Shown here one piece after another: positions 1,526-51,772 of a DNA stretch of 64,000 bases. The notes beneath the pieces were generated by a model. It was given only the letters and a program-made list of their open reading frames with translations, had not been told where the DNA came from and did no database searches. The DNA is from Thuidium tamariscinum (lineage: Eukaryota; Streptophyta; Bryopsida; Hypnales; Thuidiaceae), in contig OX344750.2 in assembly GCA_947034885.2 (NCBI GenBank), forward strand, positions 32,102,821-32,166,820. Reading direction: 5' to 3'. Position 1 is the first letter of the stretch, and each line of letters begins with the position of its first letter. Position numbers and translations under genes: made by a program.

Positions 1526-4500
1526 TTGAAAGGCCCATCTACTCTACCCTCTGCAAGTATTCCACATTCAGACAATGACCTTGCAGAAACTGACAATGTT
1601 CAAGAAGAACCAATGGATTATGAAGATATTGGAGAACATCCTGATGTGGTTGTTGCTGATTTCCTACTGCATAGGTTGGGGATGGAAGTCCAACCACTTG
1701 ACAATGACATAGCTGACATTGAGGGTGCTCCAATGAATTATTTAGCCACTGAAGCCTCGACACCATTATATACTGGTTCTAGGGCTAATCGTTTGTCTAT
1801 TATTCTTCAGTTTTTGAAAATACAGGCTAAGCATGGAGTAAGCAATGTATGCATGGATGAAATATTCCAATTGATTGGAGATCATGTCATTGATTCAAAT
1901 TTGGACTCTAAAATGCCAAAGACAAGAGCAGAAGCAAGGATACTAATTACAGAATTGGGACTTGACTATAAGACAATACATTCATGCCCATGTGATCATA
2001 CTTTGTATTATGGAGAGAATGAAGACCTTCAAATATGTCCCAATTGCAACCTATCTCGATACCGGCAAGATACACTTCTAAAGACCGTCCCAAGAAAGGT
2101 AATTGTTTATATAATTATTATTTTTTAGACAATTTTTGATGATTTCCCTCTACAATTTTTTTGATGCAATTTTAACATTAATTATTTTTTCTATGTGCAT
2201 GGACAATATTTATCAACAGAAGATGCACTATTTTCCAATTACTCCGCGTCTACAAGCTATGTATCAATGTCCAAGTATCTCAAAACTTATGACTTGGCAC
2301 CATGACCACAAAAGTGAAGATGACATTATGAGAGGGCCGGCTGACTCACCAGCATGGAAATTTGCTCTTAGAAGATGGAAATTTCTCCAAAATCCGCGCA
2401 ATGTATTTCTAGGCATGGCCATGGATGGAGTGAATCCTTTTGGGAATAATTCTACTGCATACTCTATATGGCCCATTGTACTAATATGCTACAATCTACC
2501 ACCTTGGCTAGCTATCAAAGCCTCTTTTTTGATACTTGCAGCAATTATCCCAGGTAAGTTACTGTAAAACTTATAAAAAATTGGTATACAATAAATATAA
2601 GACCATGCAATTATGCTATCAATTTTTCATGAAAATGCCTATTTTTGAAAAATATTTATTTTAAATGTGTCAAATTCCATTTTAAAAATAAATAATTTAA
2701 TATATTTTTAAATTTTCATTTATTGCAACAAGTACATCTTCAACAAGTACATCTTCCAACAATTTAGTACAAGTTTTTCTTGAGCTATTAGAAAGCTACA
2801 ATAATTTGAAGAGTAATATAAACAATATATATTTTGCATGTGCAGGAAAAAAGAAAGTCAAAGATATGAACGTTTATTTGGCACCAATTATTGATGAATT
2901 GAAGAAATTATGGACAATTGGAGTAGAAGCTTTTGATGTTCATACAAAAAAATCTTTCACTATGAAGGCCATACTTTTGTGGACTATGCATGATTTTCCA
3001 GGATATGGTGTGGCATCTTCATTGCAAACGCAAGGTTTTTTTGGATGTCCAGTTTGTGGGCCGGAGTATGTAAATTCATACTCTGCAAAAGAATTAAATA
3101 AGATTATATATCACGGGTATCGGAGGTATTTACCAGAGGGCCATCCATGGAGATCAAATGAAGTTGTCAACCAATTCAATGGCAAGATGGAGCCCATTTT
3201 AAAACCTCCTACGAGGATGGATGGTTGGGATTGGTTGTCACAATGGGAGAAAGTGGAAACTGGTTCATTGCAACTTCAAAAAAGTGGCATGACAGGGATT
3301 TCAAAGTTCTATGACCTTGAATATTGGGCTGTAAGTTTTTTTAACCCTTACTCACATAATAATATTTTTGTTGCGTTTTAATAGAGGATAATTTATATTG
3401 TGGTATTGACAAAAATGTCTATTCAATTCTATTGTATCCATTGGATTAGTGTATTTGAGGATATTAGTTAATGTAAATTAACTTTTTTTGCATGCAGGAG
3501 CTCAAGATACGACACCTTCTTGACCCAATGCATATAGAGAAAAATGTATGTTCATCTCTTTTTAAGACCTTTACTAATGCAAAAGGTACAAAGGCTGATT
3601 CTGAGTCACAAAGAGAGGAAATGAAGAATATGGGGATTATGAAAGATATGTGGATTCAATCTGGAAGTGCACCACCCAAAGCACCTTGGATTTTTACAAA
3701 GACTGAATTTGCCCAAGTAATTGATGTGCTACAAACCACAAAGACTCCAAGGAATTATGGATCATCTTTTGAACATAAATTTGCAGACAACAAGTTTACA
3801 GGCATGAAGACACATGACTATCACAATCTTTTGCATGATTTGCTTCCAATTGCAGTGAGGGATGCTTTGAATGAAAACTTGCGAAGCATTGTATACCGGT
3901 TGGGAGAATTGTTTCGCTGGATATGTAGCAAAGAAATTAAGATTTCTGAAATTCGTGGGATGAAAAATATGGCAGCTGAGTTGATGTGTGATATGGAAAG
4001 AAATCTCCCTCCAAGCTTTTTTGACATTCAAGTACATTTGATATGGCATTTGGTGGAAGAAGTTGAATTGTGTGGACTTGTATCATCTCGTTGGATGTAC
4101 TTTTTGGAACGATACATGAAGGACCTCAAAAATTGGGTTAGACAAAAGGCACGTCCAGAGGGTTCTATGGCAGAAGGATATATCTTGACAGAGGCAATGC
4201 ACTATACTACTGAGTACACTACCCGATTGGCACCAAATGCACCTCAATTGTGGAAGCTAAAAGAAGATCCAATTCTATCTGAGATGGTATTGCCTAAAGC
4301 CCATAAAATGCAACGTCTTGATAGAGATGAAATGGGGGTGGTTTTTTTGAAACAAATTCACAATTTCATATTAAAAAATGATCCTTGCATGGCGCATTGG
4401 AGAAGACAATATGCTATAGAAGTTAGAAACAATGAAGTTGACTTTGGTGAATGGGCCCTACTCCAAATGCAAAGCCAAATCAGCTTGGGTGAACACCCAA

Positions 4501-6100
4501 TAGATCGTGAGTACAATATTGCCCTTGGTCCACATCCAAAAGTGAAATTCTATGCACATATGTGGGCTACAGGAAAATATTTAAGAGTATTTGCTAGAGA
4601 TGTTGGAAAAAAGACACAAGATTCAGGTATTGACTTCTATCTATTCTTGAAGTTGTTTTGTCCTAAAATCTAGTGAAAGTAGGACTTTACATGAATATTA
4701 TATAGCTTTATGGAGATTTAAGTTAACCTTTTTTATTATTCTCTTTGTTTGTAGGTGTGATTATTGAACAAAAATCACAAAGCGCAAAACCATAATGAAG
4801 AGTCTTGTATGGAGTACAAAATGAAAATCAAAGTTCAAAAGTTCTTGCCCCTAATAGTTGTTTGTACTTGCATGTTTGTAGAGAAGATAAAAGTACATTA
4901 TAAGAATATGTTTTCTTTGTATTTGTAGATTCATTCTAAAAAAACATTAGTGTTTCACTATAGAATTGCAACAAGTACATCTTCCAACAATTTAGTACAA
5001 GTTTTTTCATTTTGACATTCAAAATACTATCACTATTATGAGTTGAAAGTTAATAAATGGAATTGCATAGAATTAAAAAAAAAAATAGAACTTAAAGAAG
5101 ATGTATTATATTGTCATTTTAAAGATAATCCTTCATGAAATTATGAAATTGAATTATTTCACATATTTAATTACCCTCTATATATGGTTGTTGCATATTT
5201 ATATTCATCAGAGTGTTCTCAAATATTTCTAATGTATACAATGATCATACAATTTGAACTTCAAAGGTGAATTGAATTTTTATTTTGGTTACTACTAAAC
5301 TTTACATGTGCACTTGTACAGGGATAGCATGTTCATTCCATCACTTGGATGTCAATGGAGAACCTTGCACAATTGAATATTATGGCAAAATCTGCAATAT
5401 TGTTGAAGTAAACTTCAGGTCTTTTACAATAATATTATTGAAAGCAAATTGGTATGACAGTACTCCAACACGCCGTGGAAACCCTAGAGTTTTGGTTGAT
5501 GAGTGTAAGTTTACACGTGTACGTACAAGCACCTTTATGCCATCTCACTTGGTCGAACACGAACCTTTTATTTACCCTCTTGATGTAGACCAAGTGTTCT
5601 TTATTGAAGATAGGCTTAATATTGGTTGGCATCTTGTTGTGAAACATGAAACAAGGTCCCACAAAATTCTCTATAGAATGGAAAGAAACAACATTGTGGA
5701 AAATGATGAAGAGAACGTATTGTTACAACATGAGGATAGCAACACAATTGCTCCACCATTGCAATGCTATGAAAAAGAAATTGAAGGTGACCACTTGTCG
5801 ATTGAGTTTATTGATGAAGAAGATGCTTGGGCTAATGATGCTGATGGAGAAGGCACATTGGAAGGTGAAGAAGATTATTTGCAAACTCTTATAGACGGTG
5901 AATCTAATGACAATGATAACATGAACTTTGATGTCTACACCCAAGAGATGATTGAGGTACCAAGATTACGCCCTACAATAAGTGTACAAAGATATATTGG
6001 AGAACATTTAATAGGAGAGGATAACATCTCAGATCCAGAAATGGAAGCTTTGGATTTGCCCGAAGATGTTATTGGATACTCAGGGAGTGACAATGAATAA
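1526..6100 (+). CDS. CACTA (En/Spm) tnp2-type transposase, five exons, open frame
   Basis: Transposase of a CACTA DNA transposon, which excises and reinserts the element in the nucleus. Exons by consensus GT/AG sites: 1526-2098, 2220-2553, 2846-3330, 3498-4626, 5322-6100. All phases agree, giving 3,300 nt and about 1,099 codons without a stop. Visible in order: a Cys-rich segment CPCDHTLYYG...CPNC in exon 1; the tnp2 core with AMDGVNPFG (Asp about 260) and TMHDFPGYG (Asp about 352), the likely catalytic acidic positions; FFGCPVCGPEY; LLDPMHIEKNVCSSL in exon 4, followed by a DUF4218-like stretch; and a DUF4216-like C-terminus (exon 5) ending in an acidic tail. The frame begins with TTG, not ATG, and an acceptor-like tacag lies just upstream. 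The true start is therefore probably in an undetected 5' exon, and the N-terminal transposase-associated domain is not seen. An alternative acceptor near 4754 would add a short exon ending in a stop. Confidence 0.9.
2726..5006. repeat. 38-bp repeat shared by two transposase introns
   Basis: The segment 2741-2778 (starting CAACAAGTACATCTTCC, ending AGTACAAGTTTTT) recurs identically at 4969-5006. The first copy has an extra partial unit just before it (2726-2740). One copy is in intron 2 and the other in intron 4 of the transposase gene. It could be a transposase-binding subterminal motif, a small insertion or an intron element; the sequence does not decide. Confidence 0.8.
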
Positions 6101-8079: not shown

Positions 8080-8310
8080 TGAGTTCCAACTATTACAATT
8101 GAGTTTAGTCACCTCAAATTGAATTTGACAACTTTGAATGACAATCCAAAAATGACTACATCTAGGATTGATTTGAAAATCTTTCCATACAAACAAATAG
8201 CATTAATTTTCAACAAGTTTTATGGAATTGGACATGACATGCAAAAGTTACAACACTTTGAATAACATAGAGAGACTATGTGGGGGTTGTTCTAGTCATT
8301 TCGGTTGCTC
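8080..8310. mobile_element. Degenerate relative of the 34.1-35.1 kb TTAA element
   Basis: The stretch with AGGATTGATTTGAAAATC, CAACAAGTTTTATGGAATT, ATGCAAAAGTTACAACAC and GAGACTATGTGGGGG follows the same order as 34911-35050 in the element at 34091-35079. It lacks the TTAA ends, so it is a decayed or partial copy. Confidence 0.6.
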
Positions 8311-8930: not shown

Positions 8931-9304
8931 AGTAGTTTGATGTAGTCAAAATTGTGACACATCAAATATATTTATAAATGTAAAAGTAGGATAAAATAAA
9001 TAGGAGCATGCTAAAAACAATGGAAATCAAAATATTTGATAGTTAATACAATAAAAGTAAAAATATAAATATACTTCTAATTCTACATTAATTTTCTTAA
9101 AATAAATAAAGTAAAATAAAGTGAAGTAAATTATTGATAGTAAAGTTCTTTTACTTTGAAGTGCTTCAAATTGTATATATATATTGACAGTCATTGAATA
9201 TATTTCATAGTCATTGAAAACTTCAAGAACATTGCTCTATATTTGTTTATATATTTCTTTAATCTTTCTTATTTTTGTAACTATAACCATATATAATTAC
9301 CAAA

Positions 9305-12726: not shown

Positions 12727-12885
12727 GTAGTTCTCTTACTGGACGTTGCTAACACGTTGCTAAGACGTTGTTGAGGCGTTGCTTAGGAATTGCCTTTGCA
12801 CTTCCTCAGCCAGACGTTGCTTTTTCTGGGTAGAAACGTTGCTCCATTCCAGACAGCATCACAGACGTGGCTCAAAACGTTGCAA
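12727..12885. repeat. Irregular cluster of ACGTTGC motifs
   Basis: About seven copies of ACGTTGC or a one-base variant (GACGTTGCT, CACGTTGCT, GGCGTTGCT, AACGTTGCT) fall within some 160 bases just past the 3' end of the minus-strand gene at 12859-13473. The last copies overlap its final codons. Spacing is irregular. Function unknown; it may be a decayed tandem repeat. Confidence 0.55.
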
Positions 12886-13473
12886 GCCCCCCCTTATTCT
12901 AGTAGTGTACATCTGTTTTCCGTAATAATCTTGAAACTTAACAGAAAAACCAACTAGTGCGTACACGGTTATGATCGCACACAAAAGAAAAAGAGGATCT
13001 CGGTTTCTGCAAGTCAACTTCTGGGATTGACAAGCGGCACCGACAAGAAGGCCTTGGAACACACTATAGAATCCTAAAATTTGGTATAACTCGTTGTTAG
13101 TGGATGAAGCGTCGTCCTTAGCACGGTCCAACCGTGAAGTAATATCAGTGACCTCGTCGTTCCAAAACTTCTCCGCAAGCTCAAGCAGCTTCCACCGATT
13201 GGTCACGTCGTTCCTGCTAGGGATAGGCTGATTTCTGTAAGTAAATTTCCAAAGGTCTTCGATTTCAAAATCTGGAAAACTCACCTCCACCGAAGCTGCA
13301 CCCCTCGGAGAGACCTGATGGTCACTAGTACTCGCACTCGCAAGAACTCGGCGCCGCCGCAAGGTAGAGTCGCTTCCACTCCAGATTTCTTCAGTTCCCT
13401 GAGGAGAAGGGGACTGCTGTTCGTTCACCGATGATCCGGATTCTACATCAGCACTATAACCAGGCAAACTCAT
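12859..13473 (-). CDS. Intronless two-helix membrane protein, family not recognised
   Basis: Open frame of 204 codons from ATG to TGA with GC-rich codon use, unlike the surrounding AT-rich DNA, so probably a real gene. Residues 1-65 are Ser/Gln/Pro-rich and low complexity, with an RRRR cluster near 40. Residues 66-125 are hydrophilic and likely helical (DLWKFTYR, RWKLLELAEKFWNDEV). Two hydrophobic segments follow, about 131-147 (ILGFYSVFQGLLVGAA) and 160-177 (PLFLLCAIITVYALVGFS), separated by a short loop with two Cys. The tail is basic. It looks like a tail-anchored or hairpin membrane protein. I do not recognise the family and give no function. Confidence 0.6.
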   Translation of the reverse strand: MSLPGYSADVESGSSVNEQQSPSPQGTEEIWSGSDSTLRRRRVLASASTSDHQVSPRGAASVEVSFPDFEIEDLWKFTYRNQPIPSRNDVTNRWKLLELAEKFWNDEVTDITSRLDRAKDDASSTNNELYQILGFYSVFQGLLVGAACQSQKLTCRNRDPLFLLCAIITVYALVGFSVKFQDYYGKQMYTTRIRGGLQRFEPRL

Positions 13474-14230
13474 ATTCCTCGGGATGGAGGTAACTCACGG
13501 GAGGCTAACGCATCCAACATAAGAATTTGCAGGATGCAATCATTTTGATGACACGCATCTAGGCCAAGAGTAGTTCAGGTGCCTCCATCTCTCAACAGCC
13601 ACAAGAGGAACAGAAGATTTCAACCCAGTTCCCCTCTCAGGTTTCCGCCAGAGTTTGACCCAAACGATGACCTCCAATAACTCAGAGGGGACCTCAGCGA
13701 AAGCGATGTCTTGAAGTGAGGCCTCCGACCCGCACTCCACGTTCATCATCGTGAAGACGTCTTGCATCCCAGATGTGTAAGAGCACTACGCTACCGATAC
13801 GGCTCCCAATACGACTCTGAAAACACGGAAACGGTGCCAACGGGCCATTTAGCGTCCCTTTGCGAAAAACCGCTCCCCAATTCAGCCGTTACTGCCAACC
13901 GCATTTCCCAGGGCTCTTCATATAAGGGCCTCTACTCTGCATATTTGGACGAGATGCCGTTCGAAAGAGCGCTCTCACCAGAAGTAAGCTGAAAAACTCA
14001 ACAGAGATTCTACGGGAAGATCAAAAAGGGAGAGTCTGGCGTCCGTGACTTGTTGTCACGTTGGGCATGGGATGCTGAAAACGAGCCTGGCCCGGTCCCA
14101 GCTAGGCAACAGACCCGGGCCTCACAAGTTCCCGTGTCGTTTGCAGGAGCACCTCCTTATCCTGCTCTAAGGAAAGCAGCAGACAAGGGTGCTAGGCTGA
14201 AGCTCACCTAAAATGGTGCAATGTGCAGAC
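13474..14230. promoter_or_regulatory. GC-richer 5' region of the 12859-13473 gene
   Basis: This stretch is markedly GC-richer than its surroundings and lies directly upstream of the minus-strand gene, as expected for its 5' UTR and promoter. A minus-strand frame at 13540-13767 (75 codons from ATG) could be an upstream ORF. No TATA box or transcription start could be assigned. Confidence 0.35.
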
Positions 14231-14972
14231 AATGAAATAACATAATTTATCCCAAGTCGGCAGTGGGAGATGGAGGTTTACATTATTATATTGTCTTATC
14301 CCACATTCTATTCCATACCATTTACTCGGCGCAGGTGACGCGGCTATAAGTCAAATAATGTTAAGCTTGGCTCTCTGCCTCCCCAATCGCACGCAAGTAT
14401 TGACCTGGCGTCAAAGGCAAGTGGCAAATTGCGAGATTCGTTCCTTGGTTCTTGTTTTTTTTGGAACAAATGGAGAACAACCAGGCCAGAGGCCGGACAG
14501 TGAAGAGATCAAGTACAGACAGAATCGTTCCTAGATTTTGACCGGCAGAAATCGCGGAGTTTCTACTTTCTAAGTACAGTAATCCCCTTCGAGCATCCAC
14601 AGTATCGCCCCGACTGAAATACGGTATAAGGGAGGCAAGGAAGCAACCCATTTCCGCCCACAGGCGACGGTCACCGCGTGAGAAAGCATGGACTGTGAAC
14701 AGTGCAAAGGATGTCGAGTGCAGCTGTAGTCAACATAAAAGTTTGCCCGCATTTCAAATTTTGAGCTGGGCACCATAAGCCACATGTTGTGTTGAGAGAA
14801 CCTCAACTTCCCTAAAAATATAAGTTTAGGAATGAAGGCTAATTTTTGGATTGCATCATAGTGCATGATTATGAGCTTGCTACCCAAAAGAAATTTGATG
14901 AAAAATTGCTTTTTTTCATTCTATAAAGTGCTCAAGAGTCATTCATTGACGAGAAAACAGCGCCCATGTCAT

Positions 14973-15915
14973 TTAACCCTTAAAGGTTTTTGACTATATT
15001 TTCACCAAAAATGCTCCAAAACTGCCATTTCTAATACAAGTGCAATTTTTTTCTTAAAACACATTTTTGACTCATGTAACTATAGGATCTTGTAGTAAGG
15101 TGGTTTGTAAACATGTGGAAAAAATTTCAGAAATTTCCACCTTGTAGATTGCAAGATATAAGCATTTGAATTGACAAAAATTGCTTTTTTATCCCTGCGA
15201 AAATCCAGGCAGCTGCACTTCACAAGGTCACATTTGTGTGAAAAAAAATTCAAAATGGTGGTTACTCTTTGAATTCATACTTCAATGCAAATTGGCTACA
15301 TTCTCAAAAAATTTCAAACCATTTGGAATCGTACAACATATAGGAAAAAATAAGTAAGTAGAAAGAAGTAAAAAATGAGCCAAAATACTAAATTGTGAAC
15401 ATTTTATTCATGGAATTGAAAATTTTCAATCCCAATGGTTAAAATGTTGTAATAAACAATCTACACCTTCTGTTTTTTATTTTTTCCAAAAATATGAAAA
15501 ATTGAATTAAATGAAGAATTTCAAACTTTTTTTGTGTTGTAGAGATTCTATAATTGGCCGCAAACTACCTCAAACTCAAAATCTTCATAACTTTTGACTC
15601 ATTGATGGGAATAGATTGATTCAAAGCTTTCCATGTCTGTATAAACCTAAAGAACCAATTTGAAATTTCACTTTTAGAAAAAAAGTTTTTTGAAGAAGTT
15701 TTTTCAGCTGCCCGGGCTGTAAAGAAAACAACATATCCTACCATAACTTTTTAACCGTGAAGTCAAAAGTTATGAAAATTGTCGGGCCTTAAAGCTACTC
15801 CTCAGGCACACATCTTATCAAAATTTCAAAGAAAAAAAATAAAAACTCCATCCGTAGTGAGCTGCCCAAAAAATTTATAATCTCAAAAAACGTTGTTCAG
15901 GGCTTTAGGGGTTAA
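14973..15915. mobile_element. TTAA-flanked piggyBac-like nonautonomous element, copy A (about 0.94 kb)
   Basis: TTAA at 14973-14976 and at 15912-15915 flank an element whose ends read inward TTAACCCTTAAAGG and, reverse-complemented, TTAACCCCTAAAGCCC. The interior is homologous from end to end and collinear with 29821-30773 (same orientation). Shared blocks include GGTTTTTGACTAT, TTTTCACCAAAA, TAGGATCTT and AAAACTCCATCCGTAGTGAG (one base different in the other copy). No coding capacity. TTAA target duplication with CCC-type ends is characteristic of piggyBac-like transposons. Confidence 0.75.
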
Positions 15916-15989
15916 GGATTAACCCTAGATTGCCACCAACACCATTTTGTGGCGTTTCAGTAATAGTGCATGGCCATAAGGACATGGTG

Positions 15990-17973
15990 AAGTAATTCCC
16001 CACTCCTTTAGTATTGTTGTTGTACTCTTTCAATATTTATACAATATAGTACTAGAAGTATACTATTACAGAGCAAAAGCAATATTGTAAGTAATCTATT
16101 TCAATAAGAATACAATGTTATTTTTAAAACAACATTGTTGCAACACTACTTTTGTATTGCAATAGTCTACTTTCAATACTATATTGCATAAACACTAAAA
16201 CAATATTGTTTCAATGGGGTTAATTTTTTGAAGATTGAAGGGTTGTAAAAAGAGCTTAAAAGTAGTTTTTTTCATTCACTATTTTTATGGCCTTTCATGT
16301 TGAATTACAAAGAGTATCCATTTGAGTTTTTAGTCTAACTATCTAATGTTTGTTTTCATGTAGCTAAGAAGTAAATTAAAAAAAAAAGGATGGCAAAACA
16401 TGTCATTTTAGTGTATTTTGAAAAATTGAGTAAATCTGAAATTCTCCACAAAAATGATATTTTTCGAGTTTGAGCCCAACTCATAAAATGAAGGTCTTCT
16501 ACTCTAGTTTCTACTCCAATTAGGATTTCGTAAAAATTCAAAATATTGAATATTTTATTGTGGTTTGAACTTGGGATGTATTTACAATGTCTATTGCATT
16601 CTAATTATAGAAGAATATAGAAATTGAGTTTACACCATGATGTTTGTCACTATAATGTACATGCATGGTGATATTTTTGAGATATTTTGAAATAATTTTC
16701 TATTTGATATGATTTATTCTTCAATTTTTCTTCAAATAGATGATTGTTTCAAACTTGTTCTCCTTGCTATTCCTAAAGCAACAACTAATTGGTGTCAATG
16801 TCATAAATATTAAAAAAATAAAAAATATTGTTCTTAAAATTAAAAAAATTATTAATTCCAAAAAATAATTACACTAAATATCTAATGTGGTTGTTGCCCG
16901 ATCACATCAGATTCTACAATGGCACATTTCCAAGAGTTTCCAACTATGCAAGAACTCACAATTTTATTTAGAGCCAAATCTCCTCTAATGGTTCATCCTT
17001 GGAATTTTGTGCAAAAGGAGGTTTCTAATGAGTACTTTTGAATTTTTTGAAGTAGATGATTCGCACTATTTTAGAAAGGATGATTTCCATGAAGACCAAC
17101 CCATCCTTACAAGGTTAAGTAATTGAGCATATTTGGAGTGCGGATATGTGGAAGGGAAAATTTTTTCCATGTTCACAAATAGATTTGAAAAGGATTCCAT
17201 ATTTTTATTTTTCAAATAAAATTACTACAAAAAATTTTAGTTGAGGATTGAGTTCATCCCACTCTCATCATTTAGATATTCTCATTTCTGACTAAAGGCT
17301 AGTTGCTAAATTGACCAACGATTGGTTGCAAAGTCAATAGACTTGTAGCCAATTACACTCATGAAGACATTGATGCTGTTTTTGGTCAATGGAGCTCAAG
17401 ATTGAAGACCAATAACTATCCAACTCTTTTGAGGCTCATGAAGTCCATGGATTGTGAAGTGCACCTTGTGATTTTTCATCTCATTGAGGAAGTTCCTGAC
17501 TTCAAAGCATTTGTGCATAATGTGCCATAACTATGTTGGGAACTATGCGATAATTAATTACTACTCATCTTTACTATATGAAAAGACATCATCCTATAGT
17601 ATCAAAAGAGCAAGTATTACAAATGGAGTGCCTCCTATGATTATGAATGAGGAAGGAAGTTGTTAGTTGTAATTGTTCAATTCAATGTGTGCATTTTGAA
17701 CTCTATAGCTCATACTCCTAGTCAAATGATACTCATGTCCAAATGCAAATGCTAGTTAAAAGCTTGCTTTAGAATTGTGTATCTATGGCAAGTTTTTGTG
17801 CAAAGTTCAAAATTTGGTCAATCCAGTTGATGAATGAATAGTGTGGTAAAGAACATAGCCAAACCTCGAACATCTACATTGATTCCAACTACCTAAATTT
17901 TGGAAAATTAATCACCTACATCCCCACCCCCAATTTTTATAAATATAAAGATTGCCTAATTCATAAATATTTA
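15990..17973. other. AT-rich intergenic, no gene seen
   Basis: AT-rich sequence with many stops in all frames. No coding region or clear inverted repeat recognised. Confidence 0.4.
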
Positions 17974-21784: not shown

Positions 21785-22134
21785 CAGAAGCACCTAAATG
21801 CAATAAAATGATGTGTGTTTGGGTTACAAAACCAACGAAATTGGTTTTGTGTTTTTCTGAGTTTGAATGAATATAATACAAATTTTTGAAAACATCTAGA
21901 TAGATGCATTTATTGTAAACGCTAAACTAACATCAAAGTGGGCATTCAAATAGTCCAAAAGTGACACACTTTAATCTTTAATCGTGCAATGGGTGATTAG
22001 CCACTTCTTGAAAGAGTGACAATTTTTTAAAACCTCACTTGTCTACTTTGGATCTACTTGTGCTTGGATTTAGGTTGATTTTTAGGTGTTTGAGGACAAA
22101 TTGAGTTACATTTGGTGCTTCTACCTTAAGGTAA
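21785..22134. mobile_element. MITE with GTAGRAGCACC ends, copy 1
   Basis: The left end CAGAAGCACCTAAATG and the reverse-complemented right end GTAGAAGCACCAAATG are inverted. The interior matches 31334-31744 (GTGACACACTTTAAT, GCACTTGGATTTAG, CTAGGTGT-like blocks). It lies about 250 bp upstream of the CX9C gene start, within possible promoter range. Noncoding. Confidence 0.65.
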
Positions 22135-29820: not shown

Positions 29821-30773
29821 TTAACCCCTAAAGGTTTTTGACTATGTTTTCACCAAAACCGCTTCAAAACTGTCATTGTTTAGACAACTACCAAATTTTA
29901 AGAAAAAAACATTTTTACACAAAAGTAACCATAGGATCTTTTAGTGCACAAGTTTAAAAAGATGTGAAAAAAATTTCAGCAATTTCCGCCGTATAGATTG
30001 CAAGATATTAGTGTTTGAAGTGACAAAAATCCTTTTTTTACCACTGTGGAAATCCGGGCAGCGCACTTCACAAGGTTACATTTGTATGAAAAAAAGTTCA
30101 AATTGGTGGTTACTCTTTGGATTCATTCTTAAAGTCAAGCTGGCTATATGCAAAAAAAAATTCAAATCATTTGGAGTTGTAAAACATAGAGGAAAAAAAT
30201 AACAAGTACAAAGAAGTAGAAAATGAGCCAAAACACTAATTTGTAAACAATTTATTTATGGAATTGAGAAATTCTGATCCCAATGGTTAAAATGTTGTAA
30301 TAAACAATCTTCACCTATCACAATTATTTTTATCCAAAAATATTAAAAATTGAATTAAATAAAGGATTTCAAACTTTTTTTGTAGTGTAGGAATTTTGTA
30401 ACTAGCTACAAACTACCTCAAACTAAACCTCCTCATAACTTTTGACTCACTAATCCAAATGGAATGATTCAAAGATTCCTGCATACACAAAATTCTAAAT
30501 AAAAATTTTCATATTTTCATTTTTTCTAAAAATTATTTTTAAAGAAGTTTTTTTATCTGTCCAGGCTGCCCAGAGATCAAAGGAAATCACATATCATGCA
30601 ATAACTTTTTGACTATGTAGTCAAATGTTATGAAACTTGTTGGACCTTAAAGCTACTCCTTGGGCGCATGTTGTGTGAAAATTTCAAAGAAAAAGAATAA
30701 AAACTCCATTCGTAGTGAGCTACCCAAAATCGCTATGTTGCCAAAAAACGCAATTTGGTCCTTTAGGGGTTAA
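29821..30773. mobile_element. TTAA-flanked piggyBac-like nonautonomous element, copy B (about 0.95 kb)
   Basis: TTAA at 29821-29824 and 30770-30773. The ends read inward TTAACCCCTAAAGG on both sides, a perfect 14-bp inverted repeat including TTAA. It is homologous over its full length with 14973-15915. No reading frame. This copy has the better-preserved ends of the pair. Confidence 0.8.
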
Positions 30774-31333
30774 CTTTATTCTCTTGAGAAAGACTCCAAG
30801 AATAAGTGACTTTCACATTCCTAATTCTAGAAATGGTCGTTTTCAAAACAAATCGACCATATTATAGTTGGTGAAAATTTTTAAAGTATCTCTACAATTG
30901 CTTGGTCAAAGGCGCAAACTAGGAATTTGACTAGGCTAGACAATAGTTAGTCTCCAATGGTGTGCAAGACAAGGCTCAAGAAATGCCCAACTACAACCAT
31001 ATATCTTGAGAAGATGGAGAAATGGTGAGCCTTAGCTATGGCATGACAAGGATTTTTACAGTACTTTGGACCCCAATATCAAGGTCCACCTCCCTTGCTA
31101 ACCATTCAATTTCATTTTTAAAAAAAAGTGAAATGCTTATAAGCAATTTCATCTATAAGAAAGAAAAACTTTACTTGATTCTAAAAAGAAGACGATAAAT
31201 TATTCTCATCTTGATTTGAATCTTTAAGTGAATAGTGGAGCTCACTATTTCCTCTTGGTGTGAGAAGGGGAGTTCAATTCTGAGTCAAGCCGTGGGATGC
31301 TCTAAAGGTTAATTGTGTAATACCAATAAGGTA

Positions 31334-31744
31334 GTAGGGCACCCAAATGGGCACTTACCCTAGATCCAAAAATCCAATAGGTGTGTAGGAAAAAATATTA
31401 GGTGCGCTTATTAGAAAATAGTTTAAGAAATTAAAAAAAATAGGTTCATATTATTCTAAGCTTGTATGAATATAATATGAATTTTTAAAAACAATTGTGT
31501 AGATGCACCTATTATGGGCATTAGACTAACACCAAAATGGGCACGGAAACACCCAAAGGTGACACACTTTAATTTTGAATCCCATACATGTGATTGGCCA
31601 TTCTTTGGAAGAATAACAACTTCTTAGAACCACACTTGTTCACTTTAGGACCCCACATGGCTTCTTTGAGTCTATTTGCACTTGGATTTAGATTTTTTTT
31701 CTAGGTGTCCGTGAACAAATAGTGTTCAATTTGGGTGCTCCTAC
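31334..31744. mobile_element. MITE with GTAGRAGCACC ends, copy 2
   Basis: The left end GTAGGGCACCCAAAT and the reverse-complemented right end GTAGGAGCACCCAAAT form the inverted repeat. The interior matches 21785-22134. It ends two bases before the TTAA of the next element, so two different MITE families abut here. Confidence 0.7.
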
Positions 31745-31745
31745 A

Positions 31746-31974
31746 TTAACCCCTAAACGACGCGCAGGCCATATTTTGGTCGATGAACAACACAAAATCT
31801 TTCTATACATGATAGAAATGGAGTTATTCATCCTTGAATTTAGGGATGGAAAGGGAAGTTCTTCTACAGTGCTTTGACTTCCAACAAGAACTTTTGAATT
31901 TTTTGGAACCAATGATTCCCATGGTATCAAAATTCATGATTTCCATTTCCACCAACTCATTGCTTAAGGGTTAA
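31746..31974. mobile_element. TTAA-flanked short element, copy C (229 bp)
   Basis: TTAA at 31746-31749 and 31971-31974. Left end TTAACCCCTAAACGACG; right end reverse-complemented TTAACCCTTAAGCAAT. Subterminal GGCCATATTTTGGTCGATGA is shared with the 32404 element in diverged form. Noncoding. Confidence 0.65.
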
Positions 31975-32114
31975 CCTATAATCATACCTAGTTTTCTTTG
32001 CATGTTCTTCTAAGCTTAGTGTGAGAGTACATGAGCCAGCTTGCTTGCCAATTTGGAGCCTCCTAAAGTCCTACTAACTTAACTTTGCATCCCCATGCCA
32101 AATAGTCTAACTTA

Positions 32115-32243
32115 GGGGTGTTTCATATTACGGCGAGAGGCCATGGTTTTCTCAAATCTGATTGGTGGAAATCATGGTTTCTAAAATCTGATTGGTAGAA
32201 TCGATGGCCTCTCAACTTAGATGGCCATAGTGTGAAACATCCC
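32115..32243. mobile_element. Tourist-like (PIF/Harbinger) MITE, 129 bp
   Basis: TTA at 32112-32114 and 32244-32246 flanks ends reading GGGGTGTTTCATATTACGGC and, reverse-complemented, GGGATGTTTCACACTATGGC. A TTA target duplication with a GGG-TGTTT end fits Tourist-like MITEs. The interior has a duplicated ATCTGATTGGT(G/A)GAA unit. Confidence 0.7.
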
Positions 32244-32403
32244 TTAGTGTGACCAATGAACTGGCTTTGAGTTCCACTCCTCCAGCCTGAAACACTGAGT
32301 CTTACAAGGCTCTCGACTAAACAATAGTGAGGAACAGGGAAGCATATCCAAACAGCATCATCATTCAATAGCAGCACAATTGCCAAAGCCTTTGTCTTTC
32401 ACA

Positions 32404-32772
32404 TTAACCCTTAAACGACGTGCATGCCAATTTATGGTCGATGAATGGCTTTCAAACAGTCTGCCAAACAAAACAAAAAAAATTTCATCCAGGTTTTTTT
32501 GGGTACCAGACTTTTGATTATGTGCCATCATGCAATGCCAAAAAAAACCTCAATCAATGAACTCATAGATTTAGAGGAGCCCAAATTCTAAGAAGAGTGC
32601 GTTAGACTTACACTGCCCCTCTTGTAATTTGCATCGTGGGCAACATTCTCTATTGACTTGTGTTCCATTGTACATCCTTCATTTGTCTAAAGCGTGAGTG
32701 GTTTGCGCTGAAACAGATGCTGTTCACGACTCGCTACTTCCCACGGTGACCCGTCCGTTGTTTAGGGGTTAA
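32404..32772. mobile_element. TTAA-flanked element, copy D (369 bp)
   Basis: TTAA at 32404-32407 and 32769-32772. Left end TTAACCCTTAAACGACGTGC; right end reverse-complemented TTAACCCCTAAACAACGGAC. The left subterminal region (TGCATGCCAATTTATGGTCG, then ATGAA) parallels element C, so C and D are related. Noncoding. Confidence 0.75.
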
Positions 32773-33186
32773 GCATTCTTCAATCAACCCCCTTTACAAA
32801 AGACTCGATATTACAAGCCAAAATATCCCTGTATAGTAGTTGGCTATAATTGCGACCTGTTTCTTCAAACCGTCCCTCTAGGAGGTTGTATAAGAGATTG
32901 TACATGTTTGTTAAATCAACATGTGGTGGTCACTGAATCAATTGTGGATATTGTCAGAGCAATTTAAAAGTTGTTCTATATTCATTTTCACTTCAACATG
33001 AGACATAATAAGAGACAAATTGAGTTTATTTTGAACTTCATGTACATGTGTCAATTTTATTGTAAAAAATCAAAGAGAGTCGACTTTGTCAAACTTTTAC
33101 AAAACTATGAGACATTCTTCTCCCATATGTAGTTAAGGGGCCATTTTAGTTTCCTCCTAGTTGTGTTTTGGAACCTTGCATGTTCC

Positions 33187-33435
33187 TTAACCCCTGAGCG
33201 CCCAGCCTATGTTCACCAAAATGCAAACTCTCTGGAACTCATTCCACTCAAACAACCACTTAAAATACAATCTACAATTTTTGACCGTACCGATTGGTAG
33301 TAGAGAGAGGCTTATAGCTCCATGTGAAAGGACCAATGATTTCACCGTACCATTGAGAAAATTATAAGGTCAAACAAGGACAACCTTTCAAGTCAAAGAG
33401 GCCATATTTTGGCCTCTTGGGCGCTCAGGGGTTAA
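33187..33435. mobile_element. TTAA-flanked element, copy E (249 bp, perfect 18-bp ends)
   Basis: TTAA at 33187-33190 and 33432-33435. Both ends read inward TTAACCCCTGAGCGCCCA, identical over 18 bp including TTAA. Left subterminal ATGTTCACCAAAATGC matches the same region of copies A and B. The right arm holds the palindrome-like GAGGCCATATTTTGGCCTC. Noncoding. It has the cleanest ends of the group. Confidence 0.82.
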
Positions 33436-33812
33436 AGCGTCTCATAGTACTAATACTGAAACTGGCCTTATCTTTTCTTGGTGTCTCCTAATGCGGATTT
33501 GGTGATCCCTAGGATCTGAAATATGTACCTATGGCTGATATCTTTGGAAACTCTTTACTAATTCAAAAAAGCTCAAAAAATTATGGCACTTCTTCCTTTT
33601 CGTTCTCCAACTCTCTGTCTTTCTGTAAAAATTATGTGAAAATTCTTCCCTACATGTTTAGACCATCAAAAATAGCAATCAGCCCTTAAAGGGTCGCTTT
33701 ATGAGCCTCCTCTCTTAATCATGCCAGGCACCAATTATGCTGCCAAACACGATAAAATTGAAAATTATAGTGCCAGGCACTATTACACTGCCCCTGTCCG
33801 TGTGCTTAACAC

Positions 33813-33844
33813 AGTGGGAGGCCTTCAGGGGAAGGCCTCCCACT
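33813..33844. repeat. Perfect 14-bp hairpin
   Basis: AGTGGGAGGCCTTC and its exact reverse complement are separated by the four bases AGGG. GC-rich stem in AT-rich surroundings, between two TTAA elements. Could be the core of a small foldback element. Confidence 0.6.
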
Positions 33845-34090
33845 ATACATTACATTACATCCAAATGAGCCCACAAATGTAATTACGGATTATTCAGCAA
33901 AGACTTCCTCCAAAAGAGGTCATATTTCATTTGTATCGTACAACTATTACAGAGTACCAAACGAATTGTAACAAGCTTTAGAAACAAGAATGGGTAAGTT
34001 ATATGGCAGGTTTTGGATTTCAGTTTGGGGACTAATGCAACAAGGTGAACTCAGTTCTAGTCTCCCATGAAAATAGTTCTGTTTCAGTTG

Positions 34091-35079
34091 TTAACCCCTC
34101 ATCACCTAAAGTCCAAATGTGCCTAATAGCATCCTTTTCAAGCCCTATAAGTCTACATGTCACTAAGGTATGAAAATTTTAACTATATAATTTTGTAGTG
34201 TGTATGCTGTAAATGATGTGAATCATATTTGGAGTCATTTGGTTGCACAGGTCTATTCCAAGATTATAATGTTTTAATGTTGAAAAAAGATGTTGAAATT
34301 TTTCTAAAACACATTTGGATTTTGGAGGTGAAATTTGATTTTTAAACCTACTCAAATGAAAAAAACTTTAAACTAAAAAGTACTTCAAAATCAACATACG
34401 GACACATTGGTGAAAAAAATGTCAATCAATTGACTCATTGTGCTTGCAAAATGAGTCCTTTGAAATGTCAAAAAAATAGCAAAAATGGGTGATTAAATTA
34501 AATCTATGACTAAACTTCCTTTTACTAAAATGCCTCTCAATCACTCGTAACTTCTTGGATTGATATGAAATTTTAGCCACATAAACTACACTAGAATATG
34601 CAACTTTTTTTTAAATCATCAGAAACGGACACTATATGAAGAAGAAATAAGCCCCCAAAGTTCATCATAATCCAATTATGTCTGATTTTTGAACTTCAGA
34701 TGGCTCCCAAACATTCAAAGCAACTTGAATTGCCATGAAAATTTGACCACAATAATAAGGCTTCTAAAGGAACATAATCCAACAAATTTCATTGAAAAAA
34801 AAACATTGGATGAAAGAGATGCAAGCCCCTAAAATTGCAACCATCAATTACAGCTTGATGAACTCAAATTGCACCTATGAACTTTGCTTGGCTCCCAAAG
34901 CATTTACACATCTTGGATTGATCTGAAAATTTCACCACACAAACTAGACTAGTATGCAAACTTTTTCCAACAAGTTTTATTCAATTTGGATATTTGATGC
35001 AAAAGTAACAACACTGTGAATTGGATTGGCAGACTATGTGAGGACACTTTTTGCATCACCTTCGGCGATGATGGGTTAA
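34091..35079. mobile_element. TTAA-flanked element, copy F (about 1 kb, internal repeats)
   Basis: TTAA at 34091-34094 and 35076-35079. Left end TTAACCCCTCATCACC; right end reverse-complemented TTAACCCATCATCGCC. The interior has about three diverged tandem units of roughly 180 bp, each with a TTGGATTGAT-like then GAAAATTTxRCCACA block (near 34557, 34725 and 34915). A decayed relative lies at 8080-8310. Noncoding. Confidence 0.7.
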
Positions 35080-38804: not shown

Positions 38805-41529
38805 ATAGGGGATAGGTTCTTACATTTATTCCAATGATTGGTGTAAATAGGGGACCTAATTACTCCAAAAAATTTGGAATACCACTTGAGATGCATGTAG
38901 TTGGTACTCTTCATCAAGAAAGTTTGGTAGTTCACCACATTCTTTGGTACAATTGATCTACTATCAATGTCATGTTTGCTAGGAACATTCACTTCTATTG
39001 GTTATAAAGTAATTATGTCTATTGTGAGCACACTCATGTGTATTTACCTAATTATACATAACATTGTTAAGAAGCCCTAAACCATTCTCCTTTATAGATT
39101 AGCATAATCCTTTCCTAGATACCTAAGAGTTAATTTAGCTTAATATGTACAAAGTTATTGGATGATTGGGAGTCATTAGCAATGATGGAAGCTTCTATTT
39201 TCAAGGGGAGCAAAGGGCCACTTCAATGTTGGTTAATAATGTTATTGAGCACTTGTAAAAGCCATATTGAATATGGCCTAATGGAGAAGATCCTTTGCAT
39301 CGATAGAAGGTACATGAGAGTGACTTAGCGGATGACCATATTCCAAAGTAAAAGACTACATAAGAAAAGCTTCTTGTAGAGTAACAATTTATTTACTTTG
39401 AGGCCTAAATCCTACTACTATTATATATTGAGTTACAAATAGGTTGAGGTTTGAATGGAGTCTTTCTTACCTTATTGTATTAAAATTTAAACAAATAAAA
39501 ACTTGAATTTATTATACATATATAGATTAATAATTTGTTATTTGATAATGCTAATCCAATCAATGTGAACCATTTAATATGTATGAAAATCATTCTTTTA
39601 TTTAATTGATAAGGTCTTACATGTATGTAATACAAGACAATATTTAAAAATATTTTTACTGTGAATCATTAAGAATAATTTGCATCTATCAATGGCTAAA
39701 AATTCTAGATTCTACATTTTCTGAAAAATCCAAAGTGGGCTTTAGGGACTTTGGAGGCATTTTTTGCTTGCGTCATTAGTTGGACAAAATAGGATTCTCA
39801 CTCTTTCACATACAATACTTAAAATATATAAGACACCTTCCACATAATCAAATTCATTTTTCAAACCTTCAATATTTTCATAGACAATTGAGTTATTCGT
39901 AAAGTATCCTAAACCGAGGTTTAAAGCCATAAGTTTTGTGAAAAAGCCGGTTGAGTTAAAAAAGTTCAAATAAAAGTGGGTATGAAACTTATTTTCCCAT
40001 CAAAATGGTGCCTAAAAAAGTTTGGTCCCCACTTTTGAAGTCGTGTGACATAAGTATCTTGCAAAAAAGTTTGACGCTTCAACTATAGTTGCCTTCTCAA
40101 CTTCAAAAAAAGTCATGCCCAAAGTGGGGGGGACTTTACAAATAACTCAAATGTCAACATAATTGTTTTGGATCTAGTCAAACTACTCATGATGCATTAA
40201 AGAGAAGGTTGAAGATGTCTATTCGTATTGTTATAAACTAGATTAATCCATTTAGATGACATATGTTACTATAATAAGAAAGATTTGATAAATGATGTCT
40301 CTACTTCTACCTACATAAGTAGAAATGTCTCTTTATGGATCAAGTTGACCTTAGGCAATGATGGGATAAACTATCTTGGACCATCTACTTGCAATGGAAT
40401 CTAATGTGAAGACCATAATAATAGAGTTCTAAATACTATAATAATAAGTTGCATTTGCCAATAAATTGGTTCCTCCCTTTTTTTTGCATGAAAGGTCTTT
40501 TATTAATGTAAAACCTTTTCTTCTTCTTCTCACAATGTGGATAAATCCATTTGAGGTTTAGTTTGTTGGCTTTCAACATTGGGTCAAATTTTTTAAGGCC
40601 ACCAAAACAGAAGGACGTAGACAACCTTTCACTTAAAAATTTTGGTACTCTCCCTATTTCTGGTCATGCACTACAAATGTTCTTGATTTTTGTTGGTTAT
40701 TATTGTGAATTGAAAAAAATTCTAATTTTTCTAGGATATACATTTTGGACTTTATATGAATAAGCTATTTATCTTCAATGTGTTGATATGGGCTTGCTCC
40801 TAACCTTACATGTATCTACAAGGACTCAAGGAGAGATATAACAATAGTATACAATGGTTTTGAAGTTCAAAAGATATGTAGGCAAATGAAAATAAAACAT
40901 GTGTCAAAAACAATAATGGCATGTTGAGGCCTATTGTTCTTAAGCCTAGAAAGGCCCTTAATATTTCTTTATATAACTTGTATTTAGCCTCATAACTCTT
41001 CAATTGTGATTAAATACATAAAATTGCGATAAATTATTATTTACATATATCATGATCATTAATTTATTTTGTATTGTAAATTATTTAATCAATGTTCATC
41101 TAATCAAATTCTAAAAAATTTAGAATTAAGAATGACTTTATATATATGAGGTAAAGCTTTGACTAGTAGATATATGAGTAATAGCATTCTAAGATTATTA
41201 CATAGAGATTTTAGTATTTTCAATCAATAAAATTTATAAAGAATTGTATTAAATATCATATAAAAAGAAAAGTGTAAAACTAACCCATTTTATTAGGGTA
41301 GAAGTAATGTAATTAGCTGCTTGTTCTATTAGAATAATGTAATGTAGAAAAACAACTTTACAACACAAATGTTTTGGGCTACACAAAAATTTGCATGAAA
41401 ATTTACACTGTGTTTTACTTTGTGGCATAAGTTTTGACTATCATAATTTTTTTATGTGTGTAGGATTAAATCATAAATGACTTTATGCTAATCCATTTCG
41501 TTCTAAAATATGAAAAAAGTACCATAAAT
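38803..41529. other. AT-rich intergenic, no gene seen
   Basis: AT-rich DNA with only short, unsupported ORFs. Confidence 0.4.
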
Positions 41530-41727
41530 TACAAGAGAAAGGAGTAGTTTAAATATAATCCTAATAGTATAGTCCTATAAGTAATGACCTTAAAGGGGTG
41601 TTTTTAGTAAATTCTACTCAAAACATATGTATTTCTGGTAAAATTTTACAAAAAGCACCCCTTTAAGGTCATTACTTACAAGACTATACTACTAGGACTA
41701 TATTTAAAACATCCCTTTCTCTTATAG
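41530..41727. mobile_element. Foldback MITE with about 80-bp arms
   Basis: The left arm holds AAGTAATGACCTTAAAGGGG and the right arm its reverse complement. Pairing extends outward through AGTATAGTCC and AAGAGAAAGG to nearly the whole element, leaving a loop of about 30 bases. A transcript would form a long hairpin. Confidence 0.75.
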
Positions 41728-44402: not shown

Positions 44403-46574
44403 ATGGAGAGAGGAAGTGGAAAATTTGCGCGCAAGTGGGCCGTCGAGCTTCACGATGCTTCTAACACGTCCTCATCCCGGGATCTTCCGCCGGATCCTCT
44501 CGGGTTCTCGCGTTCCACTGTTGATCCGGTTCGTGAAACTTATTTTTCAACTATTAGGGTTAGGTTTCCTATTCAAATTTGTCAAGCAATGAGGGTTATG
44601 GTAGGTGCTGGGGTATTGTTATAGCTTTGATGTAATGCATTTGTGTCTTTTTCAGGAAGAGACCACTTCTGCGAAGCAGAAGAAGGAGAATGAGGCTTTT
44701 TGGAAGCAGCAGGTACGGGTTTCCCGTTCAGCTTGGTGCTTTTTCATTTCTTGTTTTGCTTGCGCAAGTCGGGTAGTTGAACGCATTGGTAGCGGTGCGG
44801 GAGGAGGAGTTAATGTGCTGTCTCGTTTTGGTATGCAGAAAGCTTGGGAGGCCGCACAATCTCCCGTGAAAAACTTGATGATGATGGGTTTTATGATGTG
44901 GATGGCTGGGAGCACCGTTCATCTGTTCAGTATTGGCATAACGTTCTCTGCGTTGTGGCAGCCACTTAGCGCTCTTCAGAGCATTGGAAAAGGTACACTC
45001 TTCGACACAACAATGAATGGTATCTGTGTCCGCTAGTGGCTTTGGTTCTCAAACCATTCGAGAAATTGAGGTGTTTCTGAGGATAGGGAGTGTTAGAGTT
45101 CGTCATTATTACTAGAAATACATTAAGTTCCTGTAATGTTTGGCTACATCAGCGGGGTCCCTTCCGGAACCTGTGTATGGGGCGTTTTTTTATGGAATAC
45201 AATGGATTCCATAAATGAAAAAAACGTTTTGGCGACCACGCCCCGGCCCTTGCGAATCTAGAACGATAGCCTCTAGTTCATTCTAGAATCGGATTGTTTC
45301 TGCAACTCGAGAACATGAAATTGGAATCGATAGGAATCGCGTTTCTACGGGGAAGGTAGGGTTTTGAGAGGATACAAAATGAGGACTACGAAGCCTGACA
45401 TCCCTAATCGCGAATTAGTTACTGAAGGCCTTAGTGCCGGTAATTAATTTATGCTGTAGTAGTGACCCTTTCTCGATTGCTCTAAAAAATTGTAAGAATT
45501 CATCACTGGGTTGGGTGAATTGAACGTATTCAAGGATTACTAGTGTTGACCGTCGTGGTTACAAAACTTGGTCCGTGTATTCCGTCTTTTATGTCATATC
45601 TCGCAGACATTTTTCCTTTATTTTCTTAGATGTAGTACTATTCCGGCATTTGCGCGTTAGTGCAGCATCTCAGGCTGAGGGTATGAAATTCGAATTCAGG
45701 AGTCCAAGCCTGTTCTCAGGAGTATGCAATGATACTGAATCGACAGATTGTGTTCAGTGTTTGAGCCTTTTCAGGATGCCAAAACCAATACGTTATTGCC
45801 AAAGGTTGCATTTGTTGCGCTTAACCTTGCAGCTATGGGACTTGGACTATGGAAGGTGAGGGTTCCTACTCTTTCTCCCCGTGTTTGTTGATGTCAAAAA
45901 TTCTTTTTCTTAATGAATCTTTTCTGCAGAGGTTTCTGTTTCTAAGAAAGGATTTCCATGTGCAGTTAAGTTACTTATTTGTTGAATAGAACATAGACTT
46001 CTAAATGGCAGTTCTTTGATGGCAGTTGAATACATTGGGACTATTGCCTACTCATGCTTCGGATTGGTTATCTAATCTAGCGCCCCCTCAGGTAACTCCT
46101 GATCTGGAACCATTTTCTCTAGCTCTGAGTCAGCGTAGATCTAATGTGTAAGTGTACGTCTAGAAGCATCTGCTTGAAACCATGAAACACCTTCTATATT
46201 TATTTATTTTTGAAATGGTTTCTGGTGCTTAAGTTTTTGCTCACCGAAGTCGTTTTACAAGTGGCAGTCCTAATTTTGACTTAATCGGTATGATTGCGAC
46301 AAAGCTGCATCAGCAATACCAAATACCTTGTTTAACTCTTTCGCCCGGTGTTTCAAATTTATTCCCTCCAGCGCCAAATTTGTCGTTTGGGGGTGAAAGA
46401 GTTAAATCTGCGTTATTTGAGTTCTTAGATTGGCCGCATAGATGTTCATCGTGCTCTCTCTCTTGTAACCTTGGATTCTTCGAAAGTAGTCTCAAGTTCC
46501 TAATTGTTATGTTTGAATTTTTGCATGTACAGTCGGTGGAGTTTTCAGGAGGTGGACTATCTCTGCTCTTGTAG
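44403..46574 (+). CDS. EMC4: ER membrane protein complex subunit 4 (EMC4/TMEM85), six exons
   Basis: Subunit of the ER membrane complex, the insertase for tail-anchored and some multipass proteins. Exons: 44403-44528, 44656-44712, 44839-44992, 45758-45855, 46026-46091, 46533-46574, with consistent phases, giving 180 residues. This is the usual size for plant EMC4. Hallmarks: N-terminal RKWAVEL and SRDLPPDPLGFSR, then KAWEAAQSPVKNLMMMGFMM continuing WMAGSTVHLFSIGITFSALW (membrane segment 1), VFEPFQD, LLPKVAFVALNLAAMGLGLW (segment 2), LNTLGLLPTHASDWLSNL and the C-terminal VEFSGGGLSL. The exon 4 start at 45758 was chosen over the nearer CAG because only it keeps phase and restores the conserved VFEPFQD. 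The gene looks functional. Intron 5 carries a small TTAA-flanked insertion (46332-46405). Confidence 0.95.
46332..46405. mobile_element. Tiny TTAA-flanked element inside EMC4 intron 5 (74 bp)
   Basis: TTAA at 46332-46335 and 46402-46405. Ends read inward TTAACTCTTTCGCCC and TTAACTCTTTCACCC, 14 of 15 matching. The interior is under 45 bases. The TTAA flanks match the larger TTAA group, but the terminus is CTCTTTC rather than CCC, so it is a separate family or a chance foldback. Confidence 0.6.
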
Positions 46575-51040: not shown

Positions 51041-51357
51041 AAGAGCATCCCCACCGTGTTCAAAATATGACTCAAACTGGGCATTTGGCCGGGTTAGCCA
51101 ACCATCTGTACCCCACCACACGCAAAATAGGACTCAAAATATGGCTAGGTGTGACCAAATTTACTAGATAGATGGAAAAATGTTGAGTTTTAGCCAGGGC
51201 CTAGAAGGGAGTTTGACTTTACTTTTGACCCTGATAGACAATCCAATTTCAAATTTTTTTAGTTTTTAAATAAAATGTTTATATGTAATTTGATGTACAA
51301 AAAATGAAACATTTCTTATCCCCCAAAGATGAAAAATGAAATCCATCTTGGCTTGAA

Positions 51358-51524
51358 TTTCCGAAGAGAAGTGGAGCTTCCTATATCCTTTTGGGGTAGA
51401 GGGAGGAGTCCCAATCCATGTGGGACAAAGAGAGTTTCAACTTGAAACTCTCTTTTGTCCCACATGGATTGGGACTCCTCCCTCTACCTCAAGAGGATGT
51501 AGGAAGCTCCACTTCTTATAGAAA
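51358..51524. repeat. Near-perfect long hairpin, about 80-bp arms, almost no loop
   Basis: The sequence folds back around C51441. The left arm holds AGAAGTGGAGCTTCCTA and GAGGGAGGAGTCCCAATCCA; the right arm holds their reverse complements. Only scattered mismatches and no real loop. An RNA copy would be an almost perfect duplex, suitable as a small-RNA source. Confidence 0.85.
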
Positions 51525-51772
51525 TTCATGCCTCCCTACATCCACTTCATGTGAATGTAGGAAGAAGTGAGTTTACAATGGAGCAAGGCTCCTTATATCC
51601 CCATGGGCTGGATGGAGGTACTCCAACCCATGTGGGATATATGAATTGCAACTTGTTAGAACTAGAATTTTGAATTTTGAATTTTGAAAATTCAAAAAAA
51701 TTTGGATTTTCAAACTCAAAATATTTTGAGATCTCCTCAAGCAAGGAGAGTGAAACCTCAAAGTAAAAAAAA

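Follow-up and report, generated by a model that had tools for sequence, protein, structure and literature searches.

Non-autonomous TTAA/CCC elements, probably moved by a piggyBac-type transposase, in the moss Thuidium tamariscinum

Have piggyBac-type transposons been active in the DNA of a land plant? This question is raised by a stretch of 64,000 nucleotides from the moss Thuidium tamariscinum (GenBank assembly GCA_947034885.2, contig OX344750.2, positions 32,102,821 to 32,166,820), which we refer to as the window. An initial annotation, made from the letters alone, described a cluster of five elements (E1 to E5, see Table 1) bounded by TTAA, with ends that read TTAACCC inward and inverted matches of up to 18 bp, and attributed them to the piggyBac superfamily. 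The description of the ends is exact: all five elements start with TTAACCC and end with GGGTTAA at the coordinates first given, and the 18 bp match is that of E4. The inverted ends of E2, E3 and E5 are imperfect, with the first mismatch at base 8. Beyond TTAACCC the ends continue mostly with C and T, and several of them read TTAACCCTTAA. Together E1 to E5 account for 2789 of the cluster's 5259 bp. The window also hosts relatives beyond these five, namely E6, E8, E9 and a fragment at 8081-8292. Judging from the target site and the ends, we consider it probable that these are old, non-autonomous elements that were moved by a piggyBac-type transposase.

The borders of the elements are best illustrated by E1 and its second copy, E6. 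In a self comparison of the whole window the two align over their entire length (942 positions, 104 transitions, 93 transversions, Kimura two-parameter distance 0.247). TTAA marks both limits of the homology exactly, and the 60 bp flanks are unrelated, with scores that 0.35 and 0.96 of random pairs also reach. The inverted repeat of E1 extends two bases beyond TTAA; these bases are absent from E6, which fixes the border at TTAA. E1 and E6 are thus separate insertions, and old ones. The initial annotation had proposed aligning copies as a check on the TTAA borders, and in this pair the alignment halts where it had predicted.

A further use of E6 is that it appears to have landed in another element of the same kind. 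Searched with E6 in place, the minus strand that borders E6 on the left matches E3 (nhmmer E 7.3e-20), and this E3-like sequence, E8, aligns to E3 with a score of 55, compared with a maximum of 32 among 2000 random stretches chosen without overlap with E8. When E6 and one TTAA are removed the join begins TTAATCCTTAAATGACATGG, versus TTAACCCTTAAACGACGTGC in E3, with 14 of the first 16 bases matching, and the bodies of E3 and E8 are identical at 175 of 281 positions. If E6 is an insert in E8, the rejoined 7-mer from the right of E6 should resemble GGGTTAA; it is GGATTAA, one mismatch away, a closeness found at 0.001 of positions. Against E3, the 60 bp inside the restored end reach a score equalled by just 0.002 of random pairs, while outside the restored TTAA the homology to E3 ceases (score equalled by 0.82 of random pairs). 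From these sequences, the end of an E3-type element, now E8, probably received an E1-type element, now E6, at its inner TTAA. In that case E8 would have been present before E6, and the likeliest history makes E3 the unfilled counterpart, i.e. a paralogous empty site. An empty site with a single TTAA was another check proposed at the outset; the comparison, made here between paralogues and not alleles, gives one TTAA in E3 and two flanking E6.

Some details tell against this history. With E6 in place, its own end, reversed, fits the end of E3 at 12 of 16 bases, so the match of the ends is not decisive by itself and it is the rejoined 7-mer that carries the case. The nhmmer match also extended four bases beyond the shared TTAA into E6, and the empty site is a paralogue of 62% identity, not an allele.

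A second empty site was considered, at approximately 21852-22133, where the sequence matches the DNA to the left of E2 and a single TTAA stands at the E2 site. It was rejected, as the match is one-sided: this repeat does not match the other side of E2 (0.37 of random pairs are as good). The repeat itself has two copies in the window, 31332-31743 and 21852-22129, with 69.5% identity over about 300 bp. The copy at 31332-31743 directly adjoins E2, and its ends appear inverted by eye (GTAGGGCACCCAAAT and ATTTGGGTGCTCCTAC).

Some of the other elements have relatives as well. The first 42 bp of E2 and E3 are similar with an E-value of about 1e-8, and the right part of E2 is repeated at E9, where it terminates at TTAA (nhmmer E 1.2e-6). 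The fragment at 8081-8292, which lacks recognisable ends, is related to E5 (nhmmer E 1.9e-15), and no second copy of E4 was found in the window at E 0.01. An E5-like end at 40348-40369 was weak (E 0.64) and is not counted. The cores of E1/E6, E2/E9, E3/E8, E4 and E5 differ from each other while their ends are similar. The family group proposed in the initial annotation is consequently too simple.

How often would such ends pair by chance? We counted TTAACC..GGTTAA pairs that lie no more than 1.2 kb apart and match at 11 or more of the 14 terminal positions. The window has 9 of them, whereas 200 simulated first-order Markov sequences had 0.385 on average and never more than 2. These nine are the six elements E1 to E6 and three cross-pairings between ends in the cluster; E2 has 11 terminal matches out of 14, and E3, E5 and E6 each have 12. 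The cluster is itself uncommon: if elements fall at random among the window's TTAA sites, the probability of five starts within 4.3 kb is 0.0007 for six elements and 0.0026 for seven. No direct repeat was found immediately outside the TTAA in any of the seven candidates (E1 to E7). The last of these, E7 (15919-16223), has since been dropped: the TTAA on its left belongs to E8, as the outer TTAA of that element, and the two ends of E7 match at only 10 of 18 positions. A pairing of the left end of E2 with the right end of E3 (13 of 14 matches) is disfavoured by the left ends that E2 and E3 share (86% over 42 bp). Within 1.6 kb, no candidate partner matches the orphan ends at 3341, 12186 and 16223 at more than 11-12 of 18 positions; of the single ends with high scores, 12186 and 46397 are likewise without a good partner (best 11 of 18). 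The end at 46397 falls inside an open reading frame (ORF), 46233-46574, that ends with the C-terminus of EMC4; the position is perhaps the last intron of that gene.

Could these simply be chance pairs of TTAACCC, with no transposons involved? The motif alone, counted on both strands, occurs 16 times versus 9.25 expected, an excess of about 1.7-fold, so lone ends such as the three orphans may be chance, and the weight of the argument lies on the pairing and the second copies. A whole-length second copy, a probable nested insertion and nine inverted pairs leave this explanation hardly any credence; it is refuted for E1/E6, and less strongly for E3/E8 and E2/E9. For E4 the evidence is its 18 bp ends, and for E5 its ends together with the end-less relative. 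A further alternative is that the elements are of the Tc1/mariner type: their ends would then be ACCC..GGGT, only TA would be duplicated, and the outer T and A would reflect target preference or chance. TA is contained in TTAA, and the E6/E3 site taken alone fits either duplication equally, since the letters, and thus the empty site, are the same. Tc1/Mariner is moreover among the superfamilies of plant miniature inverted-repeat transposable elements (MITEs). That said, the ends of Stowaway-type Tc1/mariner MITEs differ from those seen here, and the four ends that were detected by homology and not by pattern (E6 left and right, E8 outer, E9 right) all have an outer T or A beside the TA. Under free TA insertion this has a probability of about 0.008, the product of the TA contexts in the window (0.084, 0.30 and 0.30), and for this reason TTAA is preferred. 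Tc1/mariner-type movement appears improbable, and the duplication is most likely the four bases TTAA rather than the inner TA. The exact TTAA duplication initially claimed is favoured by the borders of E1/E6 and by the homology-found ends, but not by the E6/E3 site alone.

Which TTAA-specific transposase was responsible is a separate matter. The mover may have been Kolobok or a plant transposase yet to be described, possibly also Sola, some elements of which use TTAA. Kolobok likewise duplicates TTAA and is known from chlorophytes and rhodophytes (PMC9587614), and Sola has been annotated in a fern (PMC6890710). However, Kolobok ends are described as 5'-RR..YY-3' inside the TTAA (PMC9587614), whereas the elements in the window read CC..GG, with CCC after TTAA at all 12 ends of E1 to E6. 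We regard another superfamily as an unlikely source. The piggyBac-type reading fares better: members of this superfamily are reported to have terminal inverted repeats of 12-19 bp, TTAA duplications and a CC[C/T]T hallmark (PMC2872659), and the perfect inverted ends of E1 (14 bp) and E4 (18 bp) lie in this range. A close parallel is provided by the CMITEs of corals, which are piggyBac MITEs with a TTAA target, short CCC-type inverted ends and no recognised transposase, and which form arrays and insert at TTAA within another repeat (PMC2872659). The elements described here differ from CMITEs in that the host is a land plant, the commonest end is CCCCT and not CC[C/T]T, and no autonomous partner was found.

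Several observations weigh against a piggyBac-type mover. The base after CCC at the 12 ends of E1 to E6 is C in eight, T in three and A in one, hence the literal CC[C/T]T is found at only 3 of 12. CCCCT, present at 8 of these ends, is absent from the four end motifs given in a survey of animals (CACTA, CCCTC, CCCTT and CCCAT; PMC10813416), which 4 of the 12 ends fit. The presence of TTAACCC at all 12 ends is itself partly a product of selection, as most ends were chosen by that pattern. The cores of E2 to E5 are dissimilar, apart from the left end shared by E2 and E3 and 26 bp over which E3 matches E5 (E 0.02-0.05), and therefore a common mobiliser has to be argued from the ends. Outside the TTAA, the comparison of the E2 and E9 flanks reaches 0.067 against random pairs, so the stop there is not clean. 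Lastly, no piggyBac-type transposase was found among the frames and ORFs of the window that were given to Pfam. In the twelve read-through frames of E1 and E5, the two elements scanned, Pfam gave no transposase, and stray matches (E 0.018 and 0.041) were to unrelated families; E2, E3, E4 and E6 have no stop-free stretch longer than 50 to 64 codons. The lack of a Pfam transposase in E1 and E5 is expected of non-autonomous elements and agrees with the initial annotation, which had seen none. Mobile, non-coding TTAA/CCC elements are supported by the E1/E6 pair and the probable nested insertion with its paralogous empty site; piggyBac fits target site and termini, with the superfamily itself deduced from these and the literal hallmark at a quarter of the ends.

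We propose that the elements are MITEs and longer non-coding cut-and-paste elements from several families, which share short, CCC-starting inverted ends and insertion at TTAA. A piggyBac-type transposase encoded elsewhere most likely mobilised them in trans, recognising an end resembling TTAACCCYTNA, excising the element and reinserting it at a different TTAA. Autonomous piggyBac elements encode a DDD transposase of the DDE_Tnp_1_7 type (PF13843), and their seamless excision leaves one TTAA behind. Since several ends here read TTAACCCTTAA, they can themselves supply an additional TTAA target, and one was probably used at 14973 by an E1-type element. We tentatively extend this to a possibility that should be held loosely: mosses may carry, or may long have carried, a piggyBac-like lineage of their own with a distinctive CCCCT-type end and an unrecognised transposase, whose elements reuse the TTAA in each other's ends and thereby build clusters.

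The rest of the window bears on the host. Pfam was applied to seventeen further ORFs, in addition to the E1 and E5 frames, and the sole transposase parts in these belong to a CACTA-type element, a different superfamily; the ORF that precedes these parts (1505-2128) had no match. The window also hosts a DUF309 ORF, which together with EMC4 fits a plant nuclear genome, and with the plant-type CACTA parts the initial placement in a land plant is well supported. Among the best 120 of 254 matches to EMC4 the top named source by E-value is Solanum verrucosum, followed by the moss Ceratodon purpureus. For a 51-residue exon, the best named match among these 120 of 254 is the moss Physcomitrium patens, at 48 of 51 residues together with two other proteins, and in the same set Ceratodon, Dioscorea, Brassica, Eruca and a protein from a metagenome contig (P0001) match at 47. 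By eye P0001 resembles the window, including apparent translated introns. The ORF that ends at 46574 carries QSVEFSGGGL near its end, which is shared with Ceratodon; Araucaria has EIEYSGGG. Judged from the sequence alone, a moss is the probable host.

Some further features were observed in passing. TET/JBP-like genes are unusual in plants. At 9287-10808 an ORF with a C2H2 zinc finger is followed by one with a sub-threshold match to the Tet_JBP 2-oxoglutarate oxygenase family (24.8 bits, cut-off 34.9), and the two are possibly one split gene. Near-palindromes at 51350-51532 (about 90% self-complementary) and 41530-41726 (82%) are possibly fold-back elements. The minus-strand ORF at 12862-13494 (211 amino acids) has no Pfam match, and a protein search found no homologue at E 0.001.

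Table 1. Positions within the window of the TTAA/CCC elements, their relatives and two further features.
Feature	Position	Strand	Description
E1	29821..30773	+	TTAA/CCC element of 953 bp; 14 bp perfect inverted ends
E2	31746..31974	+	229 bp; left end 86% identical to E3 over 42 bp
E3	32404..32772	+	369 bp; one inner TTAA (32411-32414) in left end
E4	33187..33435	+	249 bp; 18 bp perfect inverted ends
E5	34091..35079	+	989 bp; internal repeats at spacings of 170 and 188 bp
E6	14973..15915	+	second copy of E1, 78.5% identical; putative insert in E8
E8, body	14666..14972	-	E3-like; far end decayed, lower boundary approximate
E8, outermost 7 bp	15916..15922	-	GGATTAA on the plus strand; split from body by E6; last 4 bases are the outer TTAA of E8
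E9	16991..17118	+	right part, E2-like, with TTAA at its end (17118); left end not found
E5-like fragment	8081..8292	+	no recognisable ends
CACTA (En/Spm-like) parts	2701..6100 (about 2.7-6.1 kb)		several ORFs; Transposase_21, DUF4218 and sub-threshold DUF4216
EMC4 gene	about 44.6-46.6 kb		PF06417

How do these results compare with the published record? To our knowledge TTAA duplication is a feature of none of the five superfamilies commonly found among plant MITEs. The elements resemble members of these five, as surveyed in 207 plant genomes, in being small, non-coding inverted-repeat elements in plant DNA, and the main text of that survey, which reports the five superfamilies plus Micron, names neither piggyBac nor TTAA (PMC12550479). 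The duplications listed in a review are TAA/TTA for Tourist and TA for Stowaway, and the same review includes PiggyBac among seven MITE superfamilies of angiosperms (PMC10004981). The repeat table of the first C-fern assembly has 1,230 PiggyBac hits covering 122 kb (PMC6890710). The view that such elements are rarely if ever described in land plants is therefore roughly right but overstated. We found no published description of piggyBac-type elements in a moss, in a literature that was covered mostly at the level of listings; one moss paper came up as a candidate record and was set aside, as its two matches concern the 'piggybacking' of gene expression (PMC10619864).

PiggyBac has found wide use as a tool for mutagenesis and gene delivery; where it occurs naturally among land plants is poorly charted. 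The copy borders and the paralogous empty site indicate that TTAA/CCC elements have moved in a land plant, and the sequences of their ends can be used as queries for the enzyme.

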